A DNA stretch of 64,000 bases, taken from Leminorella grimontii ATCC 33999 = DSM 5078 (lineage in GTDB: Bacteria > Pseudomonadota > Gammaproteobacteria > Enterobacterales > Enterobacteriaceae). A program made the translations under genes and the position numbers. The notes beneath the pieces were generated by a model. The model did no database searches. It worked only from the letters and a program-made list of their open reading frames with translations, and was not told the DNA's origin. The stretch spans positions 124,001 through 188,000 of the forward strand of contig NZ_AUUA01000008.1 in the NCBI RefSeq assembly GCF_000439085.1. Reading direction: 5' to 3'. Shown piece by piece: positions 35,794-44,596 of this stretch (the stretch's first letter is position 1; the number at the start of each line of letters is the position of its first letter).

Positions 35794-36306
35794 ATGGACG
35801 AGATGACCGTTTTGGAAAAGGCCCATCGAGAATACGCCGACCTGCTTGCATTGCCGCCTCTGGAAGACGTCCGAGCGGCGATAAAAAGAGCTTATGAAGA
35901 CGGTCGGGGCTCCGCGTCTTTTTTCTTCGCCCATCTGCCAGAATTTATTGAACCCAAATTCGTCAAAAAGATGTTTTATAAAAGCGACTTCATCTGGCCG
36001 ATGATCTTTGGATTCGCTTTCGCTATCTTATCGATTTTCAACCTCTTTTCCGGCAAAGGAGGGCTTCACCTCATTTCCATTGGCCGCTTTAGCGGCGACG
36101 CGGTTTTTTTGTTCATTCTTTCAATGGCGCTATTGACCTCTTCATTTCCCTGTTTTGTTGATAGCTTCAATGCCAACATGCTGGAACGCCGGTTTCACAA
36201 AAGTTATTTTCGAAGACTGGTTGAATTTTTGGCCTGCTTTTTGTTGATCTCATCGATCGTGACCTGCGGCGCGCTGTTTATGGGGCTGACGCGAGTGGCG
36301 CTATAG
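35794..36306 (+). CDS. Unknown small membrane protein next to rnpB
   Basis: A 170-residue protein I do not recognise. An N-terminal soluble stretch of about 65 charged residues is followed by three hydrophobic segments (about 67-85, 98-120 and 143-165), so a three-helix inner-membrane protein is likely. The start (MDEMTVLEKAHREYADLL) has a modest AGGGAAAA ribosome-binding site. There is no obvious signal peptide or known motif. It stands alone: rnpB precedes it and a 312-bp gap follows. Confidence 0.65.
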   Translation: MDEMTVLEKAHREYADLLALPPLEDVRAAIKRAYEDGRGSASFFFAHLPEFIEPKFVKKMFYKSDFIWPMIFGFAFAILSIFNLFSGKGGLHLISIGRFSGDAVFLFILSMALLTSSFPCFVDSFNANMLERRFHKSYFRRLVEFLACFLLISSIVTCGALFMGLTRVAL

Positions 36307-36618
36307 TCATTTGCTCGCTCTAAAAGCGGCGATGAAGTTGGATATCATAGCTTGTTCATTTTCTTAATCATTTCCTTCTCTTATTTTCGTTTGCTCCTGA
36401 GTGCGACAGTAGTATTTTCCTGCCGATATTTTTATTAATATCTGTCTGTTCATTTACTTACGGCACTGTGCATGTTTTTTGGGAGCCAGATTCCATTTCT
36501 GATATTCCCTGTGCTAATGGCATGGCGCTTTGTCCGTAATTGTGGTTAATATAGTCAAAATGAAACTCAAATCTCATTTGGGTTGAAAAACGTTCAATGA
36601 TGGCGATGGGAGATAGAG
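36307..36618. promoter_or_regulatory. Intergenic region before the Tm-1-like/PEP-hydrolase-like pair
   Basis: A 312-bp AT-rich gap. It should contain the promoter of the following two-gene operon. No convincing promoter pair, repeat or terminator was seen. The downstream start has a good GGGAGATAGAG ribosome-binding site. Confidence 0.35.
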
Positions 36619-37833
36619 ATGGAAAGAGAAAAAGGCCGTATCTATGTTGCAACAACGCTGGACACTAAAGGCGCTGAGGCGTTTTACGTACGCGATCTGA
36701 TAAAAAAAGCCGGTCTGGAAGCGTTGGCGGTTGACCTGTCAACCAAGGATGCAAATGCGAACTACGGCGCCGACGTCAGCGCGGCAACCGTCGCTGCCTG
36801 CCATCCGCAGGGCGCTCAGGCCGTATTTTGCGGCGATCGCGGCAGGGCGATTACTGAAATGGCCGTTGCGTTTGAGCGCTTTCTCGGCCAACGCGACGAC
36901 GTCGCCGCGCTGCTGGGGCTGGGCGGTTCAGGAGGAACGGCGCTGGTGACGCCCGCCATGCAGGCGCTGCCGGTCGGTACGCCCAAGCTTATGGTGTCGA
37001 CTATGGCCTCCGGCGACGTATCGCACTATATCGGCGCCAGCGACATCGCCATGATGTATTCCGTCACCGACGTAGCGGGCCTAAACCGCATTTCTCGTAA
37101 GGTACTGAAAAATGCCGCTAACCAGATTGCCGGCGCGGTCAAGTTCTATGAAGAAGAGAGCGTTGAAGATAAACCCGCCATCGGATTAACCATGTTTGGC
37201 GTAACGACGCCCTGCATTCAGCAGATTACCGAGCAGCTGGAAGGTGAATTCGACTGCCTGGTATTCCACGCGACGGGCAGCGGCGGTAGAGCGATGGAAA
37301 AGCTGGTAGACGGCGGGCTGCTCAATGGCGTGCTCGATATTACGACCACCGAGGTCTGCGACTATCTTTTCGGCGGCGTTTTGGCGTGTTCAAAGGAGCG
37401 TTTTGACGCCGTAGCAAACGCCGGGATCCCCTGCGTGATGTCCTGCGGCGCGTTGGACATGGTCAACTTCGGCAGCCCCGATACGGTGCCTGAAAAATAT
37501 GCCGACCGCCTGTTTTACCACCATAACCCGCAGGTGACGCTGATGCGTACCACGCCGGAAGAGAACCGCAAGATGGGCGAGTGGATCGGCGAAAAGCTCA
37601 ATCAGTACCGGGGCGACGTGCTGTTTCTGATCCCCGAAGGCGGCTTTTCCGCTATCGACAGCCCGGGCGGTCCGTTCTGGCTGCCGGAGGCCAACCGGGC
37701 CTTTATTGAGGCGCTGGAGTCGACCGTGGTTCAAACCGACAAACGCCGGATTATTAAACTGCCTCACAACGTTAACGATCGGGCGTTCACGGAACGCGCG
37801 GTCGCCGAATTTATTCAACTGTTTCACCGTTAG
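36619..37833 (+). CDS. UPF0261 Tm-1-like ATP-binding protein
   Basis: A 404-residue protein of the UPF0261 family, which shares its ATP-binding fold with the tomato Tm-1 resistance protein. Marks are [20 protein letters not shown] at the N-terminus, [17 protein letters not shown], and the C-terminal [19 protein letters not shown]. Its bacterial role is unknown. It is followed after 12 bp by the PEP-hydrolase-like gene, its usual genomic partner. In plants the two domains occur in one protein, which supports a joint function. Confidence 0.88.
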
Positions 37834-37845
37834 GGAGAATTAAGC

Positions 37846-38673
37846 ATGTCTACAACACGCGAAGCGCTTTTAAAAAAATTTCACGACATGATTGCGCGCA
37901 AAGAGCCGATTATCGGCGGCGGTGCCGGAACCGGGCTGTCCGCCAAGTGTGAAGAAGCGGGCGGCATCGACCTTATCGTTATCTATAACTCCGGGCGCTA
38001 TCGGATGGCGGGGCGCGGTTCTCTGGCTGGCCTTCTTGCCTACGGCAACGCCAACGAGATAGTGATGGACATGGCGCGAGAGGTATTGCCAGTCGTTAAG
38101 CATACGCCTGTGCTAGCGGGCGTTAACGGCACCGACCCGTTCTGCCAGTTCGACAAATTCCTGGACGACGTCGCCGCCATCGGCTTTGCCGGCGTACAGA
38201 ACTTCCCGACCGTCGGGCTGATTGACGGCAACTTCCGCGCCAATCTGGAAGAGACGGGCATGGGCTACGGGCTTGAAGTTGATATGATCCGCAAGGCGCA
38301 CGAGAAGGGCCTTTTGACCACGCCGTACGTGTTCAGCGCGCAGAACGCCATCGATATGACCAAAGCGGGCGCGGACATTATCGTTCCCCACATGGGCCTG
38401 ACCACCGGCGGCAACATCGGTGCGGAAACGGCGCTAACGCTTGCAGACTGCGTACCGCTGATTAACGACTGGGCGAAGGCGGCCAAATCGGTACGTGAAG
38501 ACGTGATCGTTTTGTGCCACGGCGGGCCTATCGCCACGCCGGAAGATGCAAAATACATCATGCAGCACTGCCCGGACTGCCACGGTTTCTACGGCGCAAG
38601 CTCAATGGAGCGGCTGCCGACGGAAGTGGCGCTAACGGCGACCACCAGAGAGTTTAAGTCGATTACTCGCTAA
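37846..38673 (+). CDS. Phosphoenolpyruvate hydrolase-family TIM-barrel protein
   Basis: A 275-residue TIM-barrel protein of the PF09370 family, related to PEP mutase/isocitrate lyase folds. It has [57 protein letters not shown] and the C-terminal [16 protein letters not shown]. The reaction is not established in bacteria. It forms a tight operon with the UPF0261 gene upstream and is followed by a terminator. Confidence 0.87.
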
Positions 38674-38681
38674 GCTAAAAG

Positions 38682-38709
38682 AAACGGGCCGTTGATAGCG
38701 GCCCGTTTT
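38682..38709. terminator. Bidirectional terminator between the PEP-hydrolase-like gene and the merP-like gene
   Basis: AAACGGGCCG at 38682-38691 and CGGCCCGTTT at 38699-38708 form a perfect 10-bp stem with loop TTGATAG, with A residues before and T residues after it. It serves two convergent operons. Confidence 0.88.
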
Positions 38710-38729
38710 ACAATGTTCTCAACCTTATC

Positions 38730-39014
38730 CTACGGCTGCTTTTCCACTTTCAGCACCGTCCCCTTATAGCCGGTTTTCTCAATGGCCTTTAAAAGCTCAT
38801 CGGTATTGAAGCCTTCCGGAACGATAACCTCGGCCTGCCGGGTTTTAAGCGAGGCTTTCGCCTTGATGACGCCGTCGGTTTTTCTCAGCGCCTGATTGAT
38901 TGACGTAACGCACAGCGGGCAGGTCATGCCCGTGACGTCCAGCGTGACCTGAACGTTGTTAGCCCAAAGGGCGGGGGAGAGCAGCATCAGCGCCAGAAAC
39001 AGTAAACGTTTCAC
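38730..39014 (-). CDS. MerP-like periplasmic heavy-metal-binding protein
   Basis: A small secreted HMA-domain protein with a signal peptide (VKRLLFLALMLLSPALWA) and the metal motif GMTCPLC (Cys32, Cys35) in the ferredoxin-like fold. Translation most likely starts at GTG 39014, giving 94 residues. This GTG overlaps the TGA of the upstream gene (GTGA), with GGAG about 9 nt before it. The longer ATG frame from 39098 lies inside the neighbour. MerP-type proteins hand Hg(II) to MerT, but without MerA or MerR here the metal could be another soft metal. Confidence 0.85.
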   Translation of the reverse strand: MKRLLFLALMLLSPALWANNVQVTLDVTGMTCPLCVTSINQALRKTDGVIKAKASLKTRQAEVIVPEGFNTDELLKAIEKTGYKGTVLKVEKQP

Positions 39015-39373
39015 TCCAACATCTCCAGTAACCAGGGAAGAACAAAGGGATAAAGCTGAAAAAACAGCACCACGGGAAGCGCAATCCAATAGGCCCACAG
39101 CATTTGCGTTCGGCTAACGCGCCCGCTGCAAAAGGGGCGTTTGGAAAAATAGAGCCGCCAGAATCCCATCACGATAAGTACGGAAGACAGCGCCAGCATC
39201 GGGTATTGCAAAAAGCCGAGCCTCTCCACGCCGGACAGGCCAGCGGCGGAGACGCCGAATACCAGATAAATCAGCGGCCCTATGCAGCACAGGCTGGACG
39301 CCACCGCGGCAATCGCGGCGGCGGCCAGCGTGGCCATAAAGCCTTTAGCGCTGTTCGGCTGAGCTGTAGTCAT
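39011..39373 (-). CDS. MerT-like mercuric/heavy-metal transport membrane protein
   Basis: A 120-residue membrane protein with three hydrophobic segments (about 12-45, 56-75 and 90-115) and a vicinal cysteine pair in the first helix (SSLCCIGPLIYL, Cys29-Cys30), the MerT hallmark. A single Cys82 (RPFCSG) is in the loop where MerT usually has a pair. The start at 39373 (MTTAQPNSAKGF) overlaps the end of the transglutaminase gene by 29 bp. The longer frame to 39481 gives an Arg/Thr-rich shadow N-terminus. Confidence 0.85.
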   Translation of the reverse strand: MTTAQPNSAKGFMATLAAAAIAAVASSLCCIGPLIYLVFGVSAAGLSGVERLGFLQYPMLALSSVLIVMGFWRLYFSKRPFCSGRVSRTQMLWAYWIALPVVLFFQLYPFVLPWLLEMLE

Positions 39374-40487
39374 AGCTGAACGCTTTCGGGTCGTAGTAGT
39401 TGACCGGGTCGCCGTCGACTTCCGCGTAAGGGTAGCCAAAGTTGTTAATCGGCGCCTGTTCCGCTGCGGGGAAGAGGTCAAAGTCGCGGCCGACGTTAAA
39501 GCCCACCCAGTTCATTTCCCAGTTGCCGAACAGGTAGTCGTTCACCGCCTGCACGGCCGGATCGCTGTGCTCTTTTTTCTCCGTCAGGCGCATTTTTGTG
39601 ACGTCCGCCGGGTCGGCCGGCAGCCAGCCGAAGCCCGCCAGGTAGAACATGGCGCGGCAGTGTTGGCCGCCGCTAACGCCCGATACGCCTTGCTCATTGG
39701 CGCTGCCGAACGCGGTTTTTGAGTACTGCGCCAGCTTGACGGATTTACCCAATCGGATGCCGAACATTTCGCGTGCCGGAATGCCCGCCGCGCGGGCTAG
39801 CGCTACGAATACGGAGTTGATATCGGTACACTTGCCGCCCAGCTTGCCGCTTTCAAGAATGGTCGCGACGTCGCCGGTGCCGCAGCCGATAACGTCGTTA
39901 TCGCGGAACATGTTGGCGCTTACCCAGTTATAAATCAGACGCGCTTTTTTCAGCGGATCGGTTTCTTGGCCGACGATTTTATCCGACGTCTCTTTAACGA
40001 TGCCGGCGGTTGGCATGTGGGCGGTAGGCTTTAAGTAGTATTCCACGTCGTTGGGGAATTGAACCTCTTTCGGCGCGCGCCAGTGGGCCAACGCGTCGTT
40101 TTTCAACGGCTCCCAGTCCTGGGTTTCAATCACCATTTCCACCGTCATTTCCATTTTGCCTTTGGCATTGGGCCAGGTGGCGAAGAGGGTTTTAGCGCCG
40201 TAGTGGTTGTTGGTGGTAATGAACGCGTCCTGATAGTTGCCGCTGAATTTCAAAGAGAGAAGCTGCTGAAAAGGCGTATCTTCAACTACCGGGATCCAAA
40301 GCTTCACGACGCCCTCAGATCCTTCCGGTGGCTGGAGGCGATAGGTCTGCGTCAGGGTAAAGCGGCGGCGTCCTTCTAACGGTTGAGATTCATGCGCCTT
40401 TGCGCTGACGCCGTTAGCCATAACGGGGGCAACCAGCCCTGCGGTAGACAGCAGCGCCGCGCTTTTAAGAAAACTACGCCTTTTCAT
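39345..40487 (-). CDS. Tat-exported transglutaminase-like protein
   Basis: A 380-residue protein. The N-terminus KRRSFLKS followed by a hydrophobic stretch and AxA is a twin-arginine signal. The C-terminal half is a transglutaminase-like domain with Cys220 in LGGKCTDINSVFVALARAAGIPAR, His276 in SGGQHCRAMFYL and Asp292 in WLPADPADV, a complete catalytic triad. Such domains act as transglutaminases or cysteine peptidases; the substrate is unknown. It is the first gene of an operon with MerT-like and MerP-like proteins. The Tat route suggests folding in the cytoplasm before export. Confidence 0.88.
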   Translation of the reverse strand: MKRRSFLKSAALLSTAGLVAPVMANGVSAKAHESQPLEGRRRFTLTQTYRLQPPEGSEGVVKLWIPVVEDTPFQQLLSLKFSGNYQDAFITTNNHYGAKTLFATWPNAKGKMEMTVEMVIETQDWEPLKNDALAHWRAPKEVQFPNDVEYYLKPTAHMPTAGIVKETSDKIVGQETDPLKKARLIYNWVSANMFRDNDVIGCGTGDVATILESGKLGGKCTDINSVFVALARAAGIPAREMFGIRLGKSVKLAQYSKTAFGSANEQGVSGVSGGQHCRAMFYLAGFGWLPADPADVTKMRLTEKKEHSDPAVQAVNDYLFGNWEMNWVGFNVGRDFDLFPAAEQAPINNFGYPYAEVDGDPVNYYDPKAFSYDYSSAEQR

Positions 40488-40952
40488 ATGTTGATGGCCT
40501 TATGGTTGAAAACGGAATGAAACAAGAGCGGATGGCCCTATCGCGAAAGAACGATAGGACGAGGCTTTTATATTATTGAACGTTTGAAATAGAGCCGCAA
40601 GCAGCTTAAGTCCGCGTTATTTATAGGGGCATCTCGAATTTCTGTATCAAAAGCTCAGTTATAAAATATTTGTTTGTTCTTTTTTAGCCTTCCTTGACGT
40701 TTTCCCTCTATGGAAAATTAGAAAAATTCTGGAAACCACCCAAAAGATATTATTTTTATCTTCTTTTAAATCATGCGATTAATTTTTATTTGAGTGGCTA
40801 TTTTTGACTCTATTCACATTTTCTTAAAAGGGGATTAGCGCTTATTACATAACGGGCATAGTATCCACGAATAATCAATTGTTATTGTTTTGTTCAAAAG
40901 TTCAAAATAAAAAGACGGCGTGTTCAACTGATGTGGAGAGGGACGTAACGTT
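40488..40952. promoter_or_regulatory. Divergent intergenic region, transglutaminase operon and MFS operon
   Basis: 465 bp, AT-rich over 40670-40920, between two divergent operons, so it should carry promoters for both. No specific operator or hairpin was identified. The MFS start at 40953 has GAGAGGGA about 10 nt upstream. Confidence 0.4.
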
Positions 40953-42260
40953 ATGACCATGCAATATCAAGGGATCGGGCGGCGCTGGCTGCTGTTTATT
41001 CCCATCGCCAGCATTATGTACATGCTGGCTTTTCTTGACAGAACCAACCTGTCGTTCATCTTGCCCTATATTGGCCAAGACCTGCATTTGACCAACAGTA
41101 CCAAGGGCATGGCTTCGGGCATTTTCTTTCTTGGCTATTTGCTGCTGCAGGTGCCGGCGGCGCTGTTGGCCGAGCGCTGGAGCGCCAAAAAGACGATCTT
41201 TCTTCTCATGCTGCTGTGGGGCGTTGCCGCTATCTGGACCGGAATGGTGCAGAGTACGAACGAGCTGCTGCTTGCCAGATTCGTTCTGGGCGTTTTTGAA
41301 GGCGGCGTTCAACCCGCGACGCTGGTGCTGTTGTTAAAGTGGTTCCCTCAGCGTGAAAAGGCGAGAGCGAACGGCTTTTGGCTGATGTGTATCCCTATTT
41401 CCGCCATTATCGCCGCACCAATTACGGGCTTCCTGCTTGAGCACTTTAGCTGGCGGACCGTGCTGATTATTGAAGGCTTCCCGCCTATTATTTGGGCTAT
41501 CGTCTGGTACATCATGGTGGCGGATTCGCCGGCCAAAGTGTGGTGGATGGAGCCCGGTGAGCGTAGCTATATCGTTGAGGCGATTGCCAAAGATGAGGCG
41601 CAGAAGAAAAGTTCGGCGGTCATTAGTCAGGATTCGGCCCGCTATCGCGACGTATTTCGCAACGGTAAGGTGCTGACGCTTATCGTCGCCTGGTTTCTTT
41701 ACTGCGCCGGTTTCTACGGTTTTACCATGTGGCTGCCGCAGGTTATCGCCAATACCTCCGGCTCATCGCCCGCAATGGTCGGTATCCTGACAGCGATCCC
41801 TTATCTGGTCGGCCTTATCGGTATGATTATTATCGCCGTGCGCACCGATAAAATCGGGCTGCGTAAGTCGTCCGCCGCGCTGCCTTTGACGATCACCGCC
41901 GTGGCGCTTTTGTGCGGACAGCTTTTCCCATCGCCCGTCATACAGTTTGTTTTCCTATGCATCGTTGCCTCCGGGCTGTATATCCACGGTGCCTTTTTTG
42001 CGCTGCCGCCGCTTATCCTGCGTTCAGACATTCTGGCTCTGTCGCTTGGCCTGATTGGCGGTATAGGCAACTTAGGCGGATTTGTCGGCCCTTATGTCGT
42101 GGGCTGGCTGATTGACCTGACGGGAACGACGATGGCCGGATTCGGCATTATGGCCGCCGCGCTGTTCTTCTGCGGGGTAGCGTTAGCGTCGGTGACGCCG
42201 AAAGCCGGTGAAAAGACGGCTGAGCAGATAGGCGCCGAGCCTGAAGTCGAATCGCGTTAA
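40953..42260 (+). CDS. MFS transporter, anion:cation symporter (ACS) family
   Basis: A 435-residue protein with 12 predicted membrane helices. The N-terminal pattern MYMLAFLDRTNLSFILPYI and LGYLLLQVPAALLAERWSAKK is typical of the ACS family, which takes up organic anions such as sugar acids, phthalate or tartrate. The amidohydrolase gene begins 26 bp downstream, so the pair probably serves one substrate. The substrate cannot be read from the sequence. A second ATG at 40959 could also be the start. Confidence 0.88.
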   Translation: MTMQYQGIGRRWLLFIPIASIMYMLAFLDRTNLSFILPYIGQDLHLTNSTKGMASGIFFLGYLLLQVPAALLAERWSAKKTIFLLMLLWGVAAIWTGMVQSTNELLLARFVLGVFEGGVQPATLVLLLKWFPQREKARANGFWLMCIPISAIIAAPITGFLLEHFSWRTVLIIEGFPPIIWAIVWYIMVADSPAKVWWMEPGERSYIVEAIAKDEAQKKSSAVISQDSARYRDVFRNGKVLTLIVAWFLYCAGFYGFTMWLPQVIANTSGSSPAMVGILTAIPYLVGLIGMIIIAVRTDKIGLRKSSAALPLTITAVALLCGQLFPSPVIQFVFLCIVASGLYIHGAFFALPPLILRSDILALSLGLIGGIGNLGGFVGPYVVGWLIDLTGTTMAGFGIMAAALFFCGVALASVTPKAGEKTAEQIGAEPEVESR

Positions 42261-42286
42261 CCTGCGGAAAAGAAGGGGGAACAACC

Positions 42287-43243
42287 GTGAAAACCCTACA
42301 CGAAAGAATGGGCATTGAAGTGAAGTCTAACGGACTGACGCTGATTGACGCTCACCACCACCTTTGGGATCTGAGCAAGAACCACTATCCCTGGCTGGCG
42401 ACCTATGAGCCCGGCACTTTCGTCGGCGACTATCGCTCGCTGATGCGCAACTACCTGCCGGAAGATTACGCCGCGGACAGCGCGGGCCACCGCGTGCTGG
42501 CGACGGTTCACTGTGAGGCGGACCACGACTATAGCAACGAAGTGGCGGAAACCCGCTGGGTGCACGAACAGGCGGCGCGCGCCGGCTTTCCTAACGCAGT
42601 GGTTGCCCACATCTGGTTTCATCGTGACGACGGCGAAGAGATCCTGAATCAGCATTTACACTTCCCGCTGGTGCGAGGCATTCGCAGCAAGCCCGTAACC
42701 GCCAAACGGCCAGAATTGGCGCATACGATTAGGGGCGCAAGCTGCAGCATGCAGGACGAAAAATGGCTGAAGGGCTTTGGCCTTTTGGAGAAATACGGCC
42801 TGTCGTGGGACCTGCGCGTGCCGTACTGGCACTTGGAAGAGGCTGCCGAAGTCGCACGCATTTATCCCAACGTGCCTATCGTGCTTAACCATATGGGATT
42901 CCCGTGGGACCGCTCGCCGCAGGGGCTTGATGCGTGGCGACAGGGCATGCGGGCTTTGGCCGCCTGCCCCAACGTCCACGTGAAAGTCTCGGAGCTTGGC
43001 GTACAGGACCGCCCCTGGACGATTGAAGGCAACCGCGGCGTGGTGTTGGAAACCGTAGAGATGTTCGGCATCGAACGCTGTATGTTCGCCAGCAACTTCC
43101 CGGTAGCAGGGCTGCAGCTGTCGTACCGGGAGCTGGTCAACAACATGTCTGAGATTTTCTCCGGCTTTAGCCCCCAGCAGCGAGAGGCCTTCTTCTGGCG
43201 CAATGCAAAGGCGTTTTATCGCATTGACCTACCGGAAGACTAA
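42287..43243 (+). CDS. Amidohydrolase-family (COG3618-type) lactonase-like enzyme
   Basis: A 318-residue TIM-barrel amidohydrolase of the family with 2-pyrone-4,6-dicarboxylate lactonase and sugar lactonases. LIDAHHHLWDL gives the HxH motif (His23, His25). VHCEADHDYSNEVAETRWV, VLNHMGFPWDR and MFASNFPVAGL follow. Asn stands where many relatives have the catalytic Asp (SDxP); this Asn form also occurs in the family. It is probably a hydrolase for a lactone taken up by the adjacent MFS carrier, but the substrate is unknown. Confidence 0.85.
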   Translation: MKTLHERMGIEVKSNGLTLIDAHHHLWDLSKNHYPWLATYEPGTFVGDYRSLMRNYLPEDYAADSAGHRVLATVHCEADHDYSNEVAETRWVHEQAARAGFPNAVVAHIWFHRDDGEEILNQHLHFPLVRGIRSKPVTAKRPELAHTIRGASCSMQDEKWLKGFGLLEKYGLSWDLRVPYWHLEEAAEVARIYPNVPIVLNHMGFPWDRSPQGLDAWRQGMRALAACPNVHVKVSELGVQDRPWTIEGNRGVVLETVEMFGIERCMFASNFPVAGLQLSYRELVNNMSEIFSGFSPQQREAFFWRNAKAFYRIDLPED

Positions 43244-43339
43244 TCGAAGGTTTTGACAAATCATGAAGGGTATAGCGTTTTGGGTGCGGCTTCCCGTTTG
43301 GGGCATCCGCAGCCAAGGCAGCTATATCCTTCGCTTGGC

Positions 43340-44596
43340 TTAGGCCTCACCCTCACCCTCACCCTCTTTTTCAATCGGCGACAGATCCTGCACGCACCGC
43401 AGCAGCATCGTTAAAAACAGCACCGCAAGCCCTCCAGCGACGACGGCCAACAGATGGAAGGGAAGCCTGCCGCCTGCCTCAAACCACAGCCAGCGGGCAA
43501 TTTCTATTGTCGCTGCGCTGACGCTTAGCACCACGATGTTTAGCGCCGCTGAGACCGTGCCTTTCGGTAACTCGTTTGACAGCAGCGTAAAGCGAAACAG
43601 TGACGAGAAAATGAGCCCGATGCCGAAGGCATACAGCGTCGTGCCTGCCACTGACCATAGCCAAACGTGAGGGGACAGAAGGTTGCCAATAATCAGCGTC
43701 CCCAGCCCCAAAAGCTGAATCGGAATGGCGCGACGGATAAAGCTCGGCGCGGAAGGGGCCTTAATGAATTTCGCCACAATCACGTTGGCTATGATAATCG
43801 CGCCGAACACGGGCGTCTGAGTCCAGGCAAATTCGGCGGGCGTCAGGCCGCCGCTTTCAATCAAAATTGCCGGCGATACGGCTACCCAGATCATGAGTGG
43901 AACGTAGTTGAGGGAAATCGTCGCTGCGCCAATGCGAAAAATGCGGTTGTGGAACGTGTCGCGAAAGTTTCGCAGTACGCCGGTCATGCTAAACGGCGCT
44001 CTCTCTTTCGACAGCGTTTCCGGCATATTGAACAAAAGCCCTAACCAGGCGATAAATCCCATCAGCGTCACAATCGCGAACAGCGCTCTCCAGTCGACGA
44101 TGTGCATTAACGCTGCCCCTGCCAGCGGGCCAACGATCGGCGCGATCAGAACAATCGAGGTAATAAGCGCCATCAGCTTGATGGCCTGTGTCTTGTCGAA
44201 AGACTCCTGAACGGTTACGTAGCCAACGGTCGCAATAAAGCACATGCTGGTGCCTTGAATGAAACGGGCGGTTAGAAATTGCTCCATTGATGATGCAAAC
44301 AGCGTAGCGCAACAGGCCAGAGTGAAAATCAGCGCGCCGGTCAGTAGAACGGGGCGGCGGCCCACTCGGTCCGACAGCGGTCCCAGCAGCCACTGTAGCG
44401 CCATGCCGCCCGCCATATACATGCTGATTGAGGCGGGCGCGAGGCTGACGTCAGCGCGAAGGTCCCGCACGACGTTAATAATGCCCGGCTGAATAAGGTC
44501 GGTGGTCAGATAGGCCGCCAGTTCATATAAAATCAGCGAAGCCGGAAAAAGGAACGCTGCCGTACGTCGAGTAAAAAATGTCGGAACCTGCCGCAT
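43340..44596 (-). CDS. mdtM: MdtM multidrug/H+ antiporter
   Basis: A 418-residue 12-helix MFS exporter of the MdfA/MdtM group. It follows E. coli MdtM closely from the N-terminus ([33 protein letters not shown]) through [40 protein letters not shown] and [15 protein letters not shown]. MdtM exports drugs and bile salts and helps alkaline pH tolerance in E. coli. The C-terminus ends in a short Glu-Gly repeat coded by a tandem hexamer (43346-43366). It is convergent with the amidohydrolase gene. Confidence 0.93.
43346..43366. repeat. Tandem hexanucleotide repeat at the end of mdtM
   Basis: CTCACC occurs three times in a row with a further CTC (3.5 units). It codes the C-terminal EGEGEGEA of MdtM. 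Loss or gain of a unit would change the tail by two residues without a frameshift. Confidence 0.9.

Follow-up and report, generated by a model that had tools for sequence, protein, structure and literature searches.

A 64,000-nucleotide stretch of the Leminorella grimontii genome (the window) carries three consecutive minus-strand genes that encode a transglutaminase-like protein (TG), a MerT-like inner-membrane protein and a MerP-like protein of the HMA family. The TG family, and with it this three-gene cassette, is very probably linked to selenium. A preliminary description of the locus had proposed a soft metal as the cargo; instead, the family tracks selD, and some of its distant members adjoin selD or selB. 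The observations made there are confirmed, and the interpretation was partly right. We put at about 0.6 the probability that the cassette is a self-contained, mobile selenium-supply module that acts upstream of SelD.

Occurrence with SelD and proximity to selenium genes

Every one of the 14 intact cassette carriers in our order sample has SelD, called by a match over the TIGR00476 cut-off, against a background of 88 of 247 genomes, and in the family sample the same is true of all 23 TG carriers, against 100 of 217 (Fisher 3.9e-9; counted by genus, with 15 TG genera of 154 and 66 SelD genera, p 1.1e-6). A third set, made up of 40 of the 80 cassette loci picked for spread, gives SelD in 40/40 genomes, ranging from Enterobacterales to Sulfurospirillum, Wohlfahrtiimonas and Adiutrix. 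More distant relatives of the enzyme, which score about 240-280 bits and mostly lack MerT and MerP, follow SelD as well (11/12 genomes, compared with 36/140 in the phylum; p 3e-6, by genus 2.5e-4). The samples overlap, genomes such as G000 and G140 appearing in two of them, and are not additive. Among the genomes sampled, the cassette is confined to those with SelD; the distant TGs include one exception, G280.

The 14 carriers of the order sample exclude G149 (family f9), in which TG is broken by an in-frame TAA (L101, G149:C1:385380-385763; profile positions 22-149 matched) and SelD is retained. Each of the 11 f9 genomes that match TG (G008, G033, G074, G092, G108, G149, G185, G196, G206, G226 and G246; one TG broken) carries one in-frame TGA in its SelD gene, so that SelD is probably itself a selenoprotein there.

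Several of the distant TG genes lie among genes of selenium metabolism. TG, selD and a SelU-like gene of the rhodanese/P-loop kind are consecutive in G342; G508 has the order TG, TlpA-like, selD; and G332 has TlpA-like, TG, selD, with a divergent formate dehydrogenase (FDH) gene containing an in-frame TGA and with selB about 8 kb off on the same contig. The end of selB lies about 425 bases before the TG match in G478, and an FDH gene with an in-frame TGA stands beside TG in G401. A selenium gene (selD, selB or selenocysteine FDH) is thus near TG in 5/12 sampled distant genomes, with selD or selB next door in 4/12. Among six plasmid records, three have selD near TG: about 0.5 kb before it on pSymA of S. 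meliloti 1021 (L005), directly after it in S. mexicanum, and before it, with one small gene between, in Rhizobium sp. CC-CFT758, where selB, selA and fdhE follow. The S. meliloti and S. mexicanum regions around TG also hold FDH genes with in-frame TGA. A gene for a TlpA/ResA-like thioredoxin lies beside TG in 7/12 distant genomes (L117, L118, L119, L120, L122, L124 and L125). A tblastn match labelled SelB in L123 was dropped, its 176.7 bits being below the SelB cut-off (G401:C160); it is probably EF-Tu.

Does the family serve the supply of selenium, or its later use in selenoproteins? SelB is over its cut-off in 51/57 TG genomes tested, including all 45 cassette genomes, and a factor that matures an exported selenoenzyme (formate dehydrogenase N/O, for example) would suit both this figure and the in-frame-TGA FDH genes found beside TG in G332 and G401 and around it in S. 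meliloti and S. mexicanum. Of the six TG genomes without SelB, however, only G280 lacks SelD; the other five, all distant TG genomes (G342, G386, G458, G508 and G496), are SelD-positive. TG therefore follows SelD and not selenocysteine, which makes a maturation factor very unlikely and points to a step upstream of SelD, that is, to selenium supply over selenocysteine insertion.

A number of points weigh against a role in selenium supply. When the order-sample association is stratified by GTDB family it is not significant (p 0.14), because families f9 (17/18) and f6 (16/18) are nearly all SelD-positive; the spread of distant carriers across many families, together with transfers suggested by the tree, partly answers this objection. 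The family sample takes in reduced symbionts of <1.5 Mb whose lack of SelD has other causes, and in one of its 100 SelD genomes, G536, the copy is broken by stops. Since 77 of these 100 genomes are without TG, TG is not required for selenium use; conversely, G280 has TG without SelD. Of the five genomes with SelD but no SelB, G342 is the one that was examined for SelU, and a SelU-like gene is present there. No sel gene was found in the stretches read of three Rhodobacterales plasmid records (L004, L006 and L161; Salipiger, Alloyangia and Paracoccus). When the sequence flanking each of the 80 cassette loci, at most 5 kb and in places less, was searched by tblastn with SelD, SelB, SelU-like, YedE-type, FDH and FdhD queries, the single match was FdhD in L081, a locus where FDH genes occur as well. 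The adjacency evidence rests on distant homologues that mostly lack MerT and MerP. The transport direction and the TG substrate are guesses; selenium might instead move the other way, or the module might protect against mercury or an excess of selenium.

Protection of this kind would have the module capture, in the cell envelope, excess reactive selenium, or mercury that would poison selenoproteins, rather than supply SelD. The association with SelD would follow here too if reactive selenium is encountered more often by selenium users; proteins of the Mer type do bind soft ligands, and the cassette is mobile, with a Providencia plasmid copy and varied neighbours. Detoxification should, however, also help bacteria that lack SelD, yet no sampled cassette carrier is SelD-negative, although the distant TG genome G280 is. 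No reductase or exporter regularly adjoins the cassette, MerT-type proteins import, and the selD-TG gene pairs resemble a single pathway. We consider detoxification unlikely, and prefer the supply of selenium to SelD.

The enzyme and its Mer-type partners

TG is encoded at 39345..40487 on the minus strand as a protein of 380 residues, identified by open reading frame (ORF) reading and by a PF01841 match of 78.8 bits against a cut-off of 23; profile search gives no other PF01841 match in the genome of the window. The protein comprises a twin-arginine leader, MKRRSFLKSAALLSTAGLVAPVMA, an N-terminal beta domain and a catalytic domain with the triad Cys220, His276 and Asp292. The codons of the predicted nucleophile Cys220 (GKCTD), of His276 (in an HCRA motif, with Cys277 adjoining) and of Asp292 lie on the minus strand at 39828..39830, 39660..39662 and 39612..39614, respectively. 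In an alignment of 23 sequences all three residues are invariant, as are Cys202 and Cys277, and the motifs persist more widely, with GKC[AT]D and HCRA in 80/80 loci, D[PS][AG]DV around Asp292 in 79/80 and the Cys202 motif in 78/80. The cysteine enzyme with an export leader that the preliminary description had recognised is thus borne out. Its further statement that the enzyme is exported by the twin-arginine translocation (Tat) route agrees with the leader of the window TG and with the RRxF motif in 61/80 loci, but it is not general, since none of the 16 Pasteurellaceae loci has the motif.

The AlphaFold2 model of TG (pLDDT 83.3, pTM 0.83; residues 1-37 of low confidence) is closest among solved folds to 3isr, a putative cysteine protease, with Z 21.6 over 262 residues (Foldseek, VIA-align). 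TglA, transglutaminase 2 and TgpA follow at Z 10-12 (TgpA, 6g4h, Z 10.6), and a sequence search of the PDB with TG gave no match up to E 1. The PF01841 match, the Cys-His-Asp triad and the modelled fold all place TG in the transglutaminase-like superfamily, yet the fold does not reveal the substrate.

The MerT-like gene (39011..39373, minus strand) starts with ATG at 39373, overlapping the TG gene by 29 bp, and the MerP-like gene (38730..39014, minus strand) starts with GTG at 39014, overlapping the MerT-like gene by 4 bp (GTGA). ORF reading thus upholds the arrangement first reported, and the three coupled genes form one minus-strand operon. An intrinsic terminator, with a 10-bp stem containing 7 G-C pairs and a T-rich tail, lies 3' of the MerP-like gene (38682..38708, minus strand). 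The MerT-like protein (120 residues) has a Cys-Cys pair in its first helix and one loop cysteine; its structure model is poor (pLDDT 71.5, four helical segments), and at 33.1 bits it passes the PF02411 cut-off of 32.9 marginally, by 0.2 bits. Its C25, C26 and C78 (alignment A2 numbering, 19 sequences) are invariant, and the CC pair is found in 79/80 loci. The MerP-like protein has a leader peptide and an MTCPLC motif and belongs to the HMA family (PF00403, 43.2 bits); M30, C32 and C35 are invariant in the alignment, and MxCxxC is found in 79/80 loci, the exception, L062, having no MerP on its stretch. The preliminary description was right to see a Mer-type thiol pair here.

Do these proteins then carry mercury? 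Matches to the MerT and HMA families and the kept CC and CxxC motifs would favour the handling of mercury or another soft metal (Hg, Cu, Ag). Both proteins nevertheless score far under the equivalog cut-offs, the MerT-like protein with 35.8 bits against 150 for the NCBIfam MerT equivalog and the MerP-like protein with 50.9 against 92.55 for TIGR02052. The MerT pattern is a cysteine pair in helix 1 plus two loop cysteines, whereas only a single loop cysteine is invariant here, alongside the invariant CC, in the 19 sequences aligned. A mercuric-reductase-type motif, GTCxNxGCxP, occurs in none of the loci examined, and profile scans found neither MerA nor MerR nor MerC among the eight proteins scanned at or beside the site, so the earlier judgement that this is not an ordinary mercury set stands. 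Mercury would also leave the co-occurrence with SelD unexplained. It fits worse than selenium as the cargo, and we regard soft-metal handling as highly improbable.

Conservation, mobility and surroundings of the cassette

Scanning the contigs of genomes gave 148 TG relatives, of which the best 80 were kept as loci L007-L086. The order TG, MerT, MerP is kept in 79 of these 80 loci; on the remaining one, L062, the stretch ends ahead of MerP. In the order sample, likewise, the MerT-like and MerP-like genes lie downstream of TG in each of the 14 genomes whose TG is intact. The 80 loci come from Enterobacterales, Shewanella, Pasteurellaceae, Wohlfahrtiimonas, Sulfurospirillum, a Helicobacteraceae metagenome-assembled genome (MAG), Candidatus Adiutrix, and MAGs that bear the labels Acidobacteriota and Proteobacteria. 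Chance linkage is rejected both by this conserved order and by the clustering of linkage labels on the tree, where none of 500 shuffles was as low; the neighbourhood check in other genomes thereby supports the preliminary description, which had taken the linkage to be meaningful. Genes outside the three vary among genera and one copy lies on a Providencia plasmid, implying that the cassette stands alone and moves. Among single cases, L082 (Kluyvera genomosp. 3) has both TG and the MerT-like gene broken; the genus of Serratia sp. Ag1 has TG in 6/7 genomes, with SelD positive in the three tested (G730, G731 and G732); and a megablast search of an E. coli collection (20,395 records) found no close copy of the Citrobacter cassette.

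The tree has 51 rows, from loci chosen for spread, and a 100/100 branch separates its 33 cassette TGs from the rest. G510 (L124/L110), where thioredoxin, TG, MerT and MerP genes lie in a row, has its TG placed elsewhere, and its MerT and MerP are more mercury-like, with two loop cysteines. Because the G510 enzyme falls outside the cassette clade, and the starred branches force two changes of the linkage label, the Mer-type pair has been joined to TG at least twice. Long branches (L114, L112 and L006; L110 was unflagged) and odd make-up in three rows qualify the tree. The cassettes of L046 and L061, whose MAGs carry the labels Acidobacteriota and Candidatus Adiutrix, cluster with that of Wohlfahrtiimonas among the gammaproteobacterial rows, reflecting either transfer or mis-binning.

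Nickel supply for [NiFe]-hydrogenase or urease is another function that the surroundings of some cassettes bring to mind. In 3 of the 80 loci (Atlantibacter, C. freundii M-21 and Shimwellia) genes read from sequence as nikABCDE are divergent from the cassette, and hyp-type genes, named in the same way, lie downstream of it in C. freundii M-21 (nik and hyp regions at L024, 3-4645; L026, 2-4437 and 6934-10638; L056, 1-4772); hydrogenase or urease is present in 12 of the 14 order-sample carriers as against 108/247 (p 0.0012). For urease, 65 strong PF00449 matches were counted of 73 genomes, the 8 weak ones, none of them in a TG carrier, being dropped. Each enzyme, however, is found in only 7/14 intact carriers, and G092 and G185 have neither, so that nickel is not the common factor, while SelD fits all 14. 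Of 86 loci, the three that are nik-linked alone have NikR boxes (at most 1 mismatch), which lie 26-40 bases from the start of nikA and some 175-500 bases from TG; elsewhere, matches are as frequent as in shuffles. Nickel thus fits worse than selenium, and of the functions considered here we hold it the least probable.

The regulator-box search covered 84 upstream stretches and showed nothing clear for Zur or Fur. FNR-type sites (at most 1 mismatch) were found in 5 scattered loci, with about 2 expected from shuffles. CRP-type sites occur in 5 loci against 0.2 expected; in four of these loci, which make up two related pairs, the site lies between -317 and -346 (the window and Budvicia; two Leclercia). 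The window site, at 40803-40818 (-331 from TG), has one mismatch and lies between TG and a divergent major facilitator superfamily (MFS) gene; Budvicia (L015) has a counterpart at -332, and the two Leclercia loci have theirs at -317/-346. These sites may perhaps serve the divergent gene.

Around the operon, the genes scanned in the window are a UPF0261 and a PEP_hydrolase gene (36619-38673) on one side and, on the other, an MFS transporter and an amidohydrolase gene (40953-43243) followed by a gene for an MFS efflux protein (43340-44596); Rfam has no match within 36000-44000. A similar MFS/amidohydrolase-like pair is divergent from the cassette in Budvicia (L015). In G004 (L130, 3025-5402), two genes are divergent from the cassette, one of them Sulf_transp PF04143 (YeeE/YedE-type) and the other containing three rhodanese stretches.

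A putative selenium relay and the systems it resembles

How might these three proteins supply SelD? Transglutaminase-fold enzymes act on glutamyl amides, and selenite and glutathione give a selenotrisulfide; in mer systems, the CxxC of MerP and the CC-to-loop-Cys path of MerT pass Hg(II). By analogy, we infer a transport route and a chemistry in which the exported TG cysteine enzyme would free or activate selenium that a periplasmic donor, such as a selenite-glutathione adduct, holds by a thiol or glutamyl link. The CxxC of the MerP-like protein would take up the selenium in a protein-thiol-bound form, the MerT-like protein would move it across the inner membrane by cysteine exchange, from the helix-1 Cys-Cys to the loop cysteine, and cytosolic carriers would then deliver it to SelD. 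Selenium may be carried as a protein-bound selenotrisulfide or perselenide, with S-Se-S replacing S-Hg-S. The TlpA-like thioredoxin that adjoins many distant TGs stands there as if it were the source of the reducing step. In its details this relay is tentative. In the available part of one study, the selenite-glutathione adduct is unstable and thioredoxin reductase matters for the assimilation of selenite into E. coli FDH (PMC8538045).

Two reviews, of 2022 (PMC9312934) and 2026 (PMC13188914), state in their accessible parts that a specific high-affinity selenium transport system has not been identified in prokaryotes. It is possible, though rather doubtful, that the cassette is the first dedicated bacterial selenium acquisition system, in which an exported transglutaminase-fold enzyme would act on glutathione-type adducts to free their selenium and a mercury relay, put to a new use, would pass it from the periplasm towards SelD, with TlpA-type thioredoxins replacing the relay in other lineages. 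If so, selenium travels along what was once a thiol relay of the mercury type, and a transglutaminase-fold enzyme has a part in trace-element nutrition. Each component comes from a known family, and the novelty lies in the system and its selenium link. The cassette or its TG family is present in tractable strains, Shewanella sp. ANA-3 (L012) and S. meliloti 1021 (L005), making the question of selenium transport testable by deletion. Our literature search, whose scope left out preprints and most subscription papers, found, among the results listed, no paper on this cassette or on a selenium tie of the TG family, consistent with the earlier remark that no described system of such make-up was known; in the accessible portion of Lin et al. 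2015, 'transglutaminase' appears only for the Slackia gene Shel_04340, in a context table (PMC5322559).

The cassette resembles the mer operon in placing a CxxC HMA protein after a membrane protein, in the Cys-Cys of helix 1 and in the presumed hand-over from cysteine to cysteine. It differs in falling below the MerT and MerP equivalog cut-offs, in its one invariant loop cysteine, in having no adjoining MerR or MerA, in the transglutaminase-like enzyme that leads it, and in its tie to SelD. For TG itself, 3isr and the periplasmic domain of TgpA share its fold at 13-16% identity; TgpA is membrane-anchored, and we know of no selenium link for either protein.

Other relatives come from selenium biology. 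The NCBIfam families NF045683 and NF041115 (Selenoprotein MerT, UxxU / MerT-CopZ) are related to both Mer-like proteins, with matches below cut-off; the cassette proteins carry cysteine where these families carry selenocysteine. A MerT-family protein also appears among predicted selenoproteins in the available text of one review (PMC9312934), which we count as support for a selenium role, and the parts available of an ocean survey include MerP-type and putative mercuric transport selenoproteins (PMC2398784). Closest in the manner of its discovery is YedE/YedF, a predicted selenium transporter and redox protein, which the accessible text describes as likewise found through the genomic context of selD and as including a predicted selenium-related membrane protein (PMC5322559). 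The protein families are different, however: YedE-type genes match the Sulf_transp domain PF04143, which Pfam finds in none of the three cassette proteins, and the cassette is built instead from a transglutaminase-like enzyme and a Mer-type pair.

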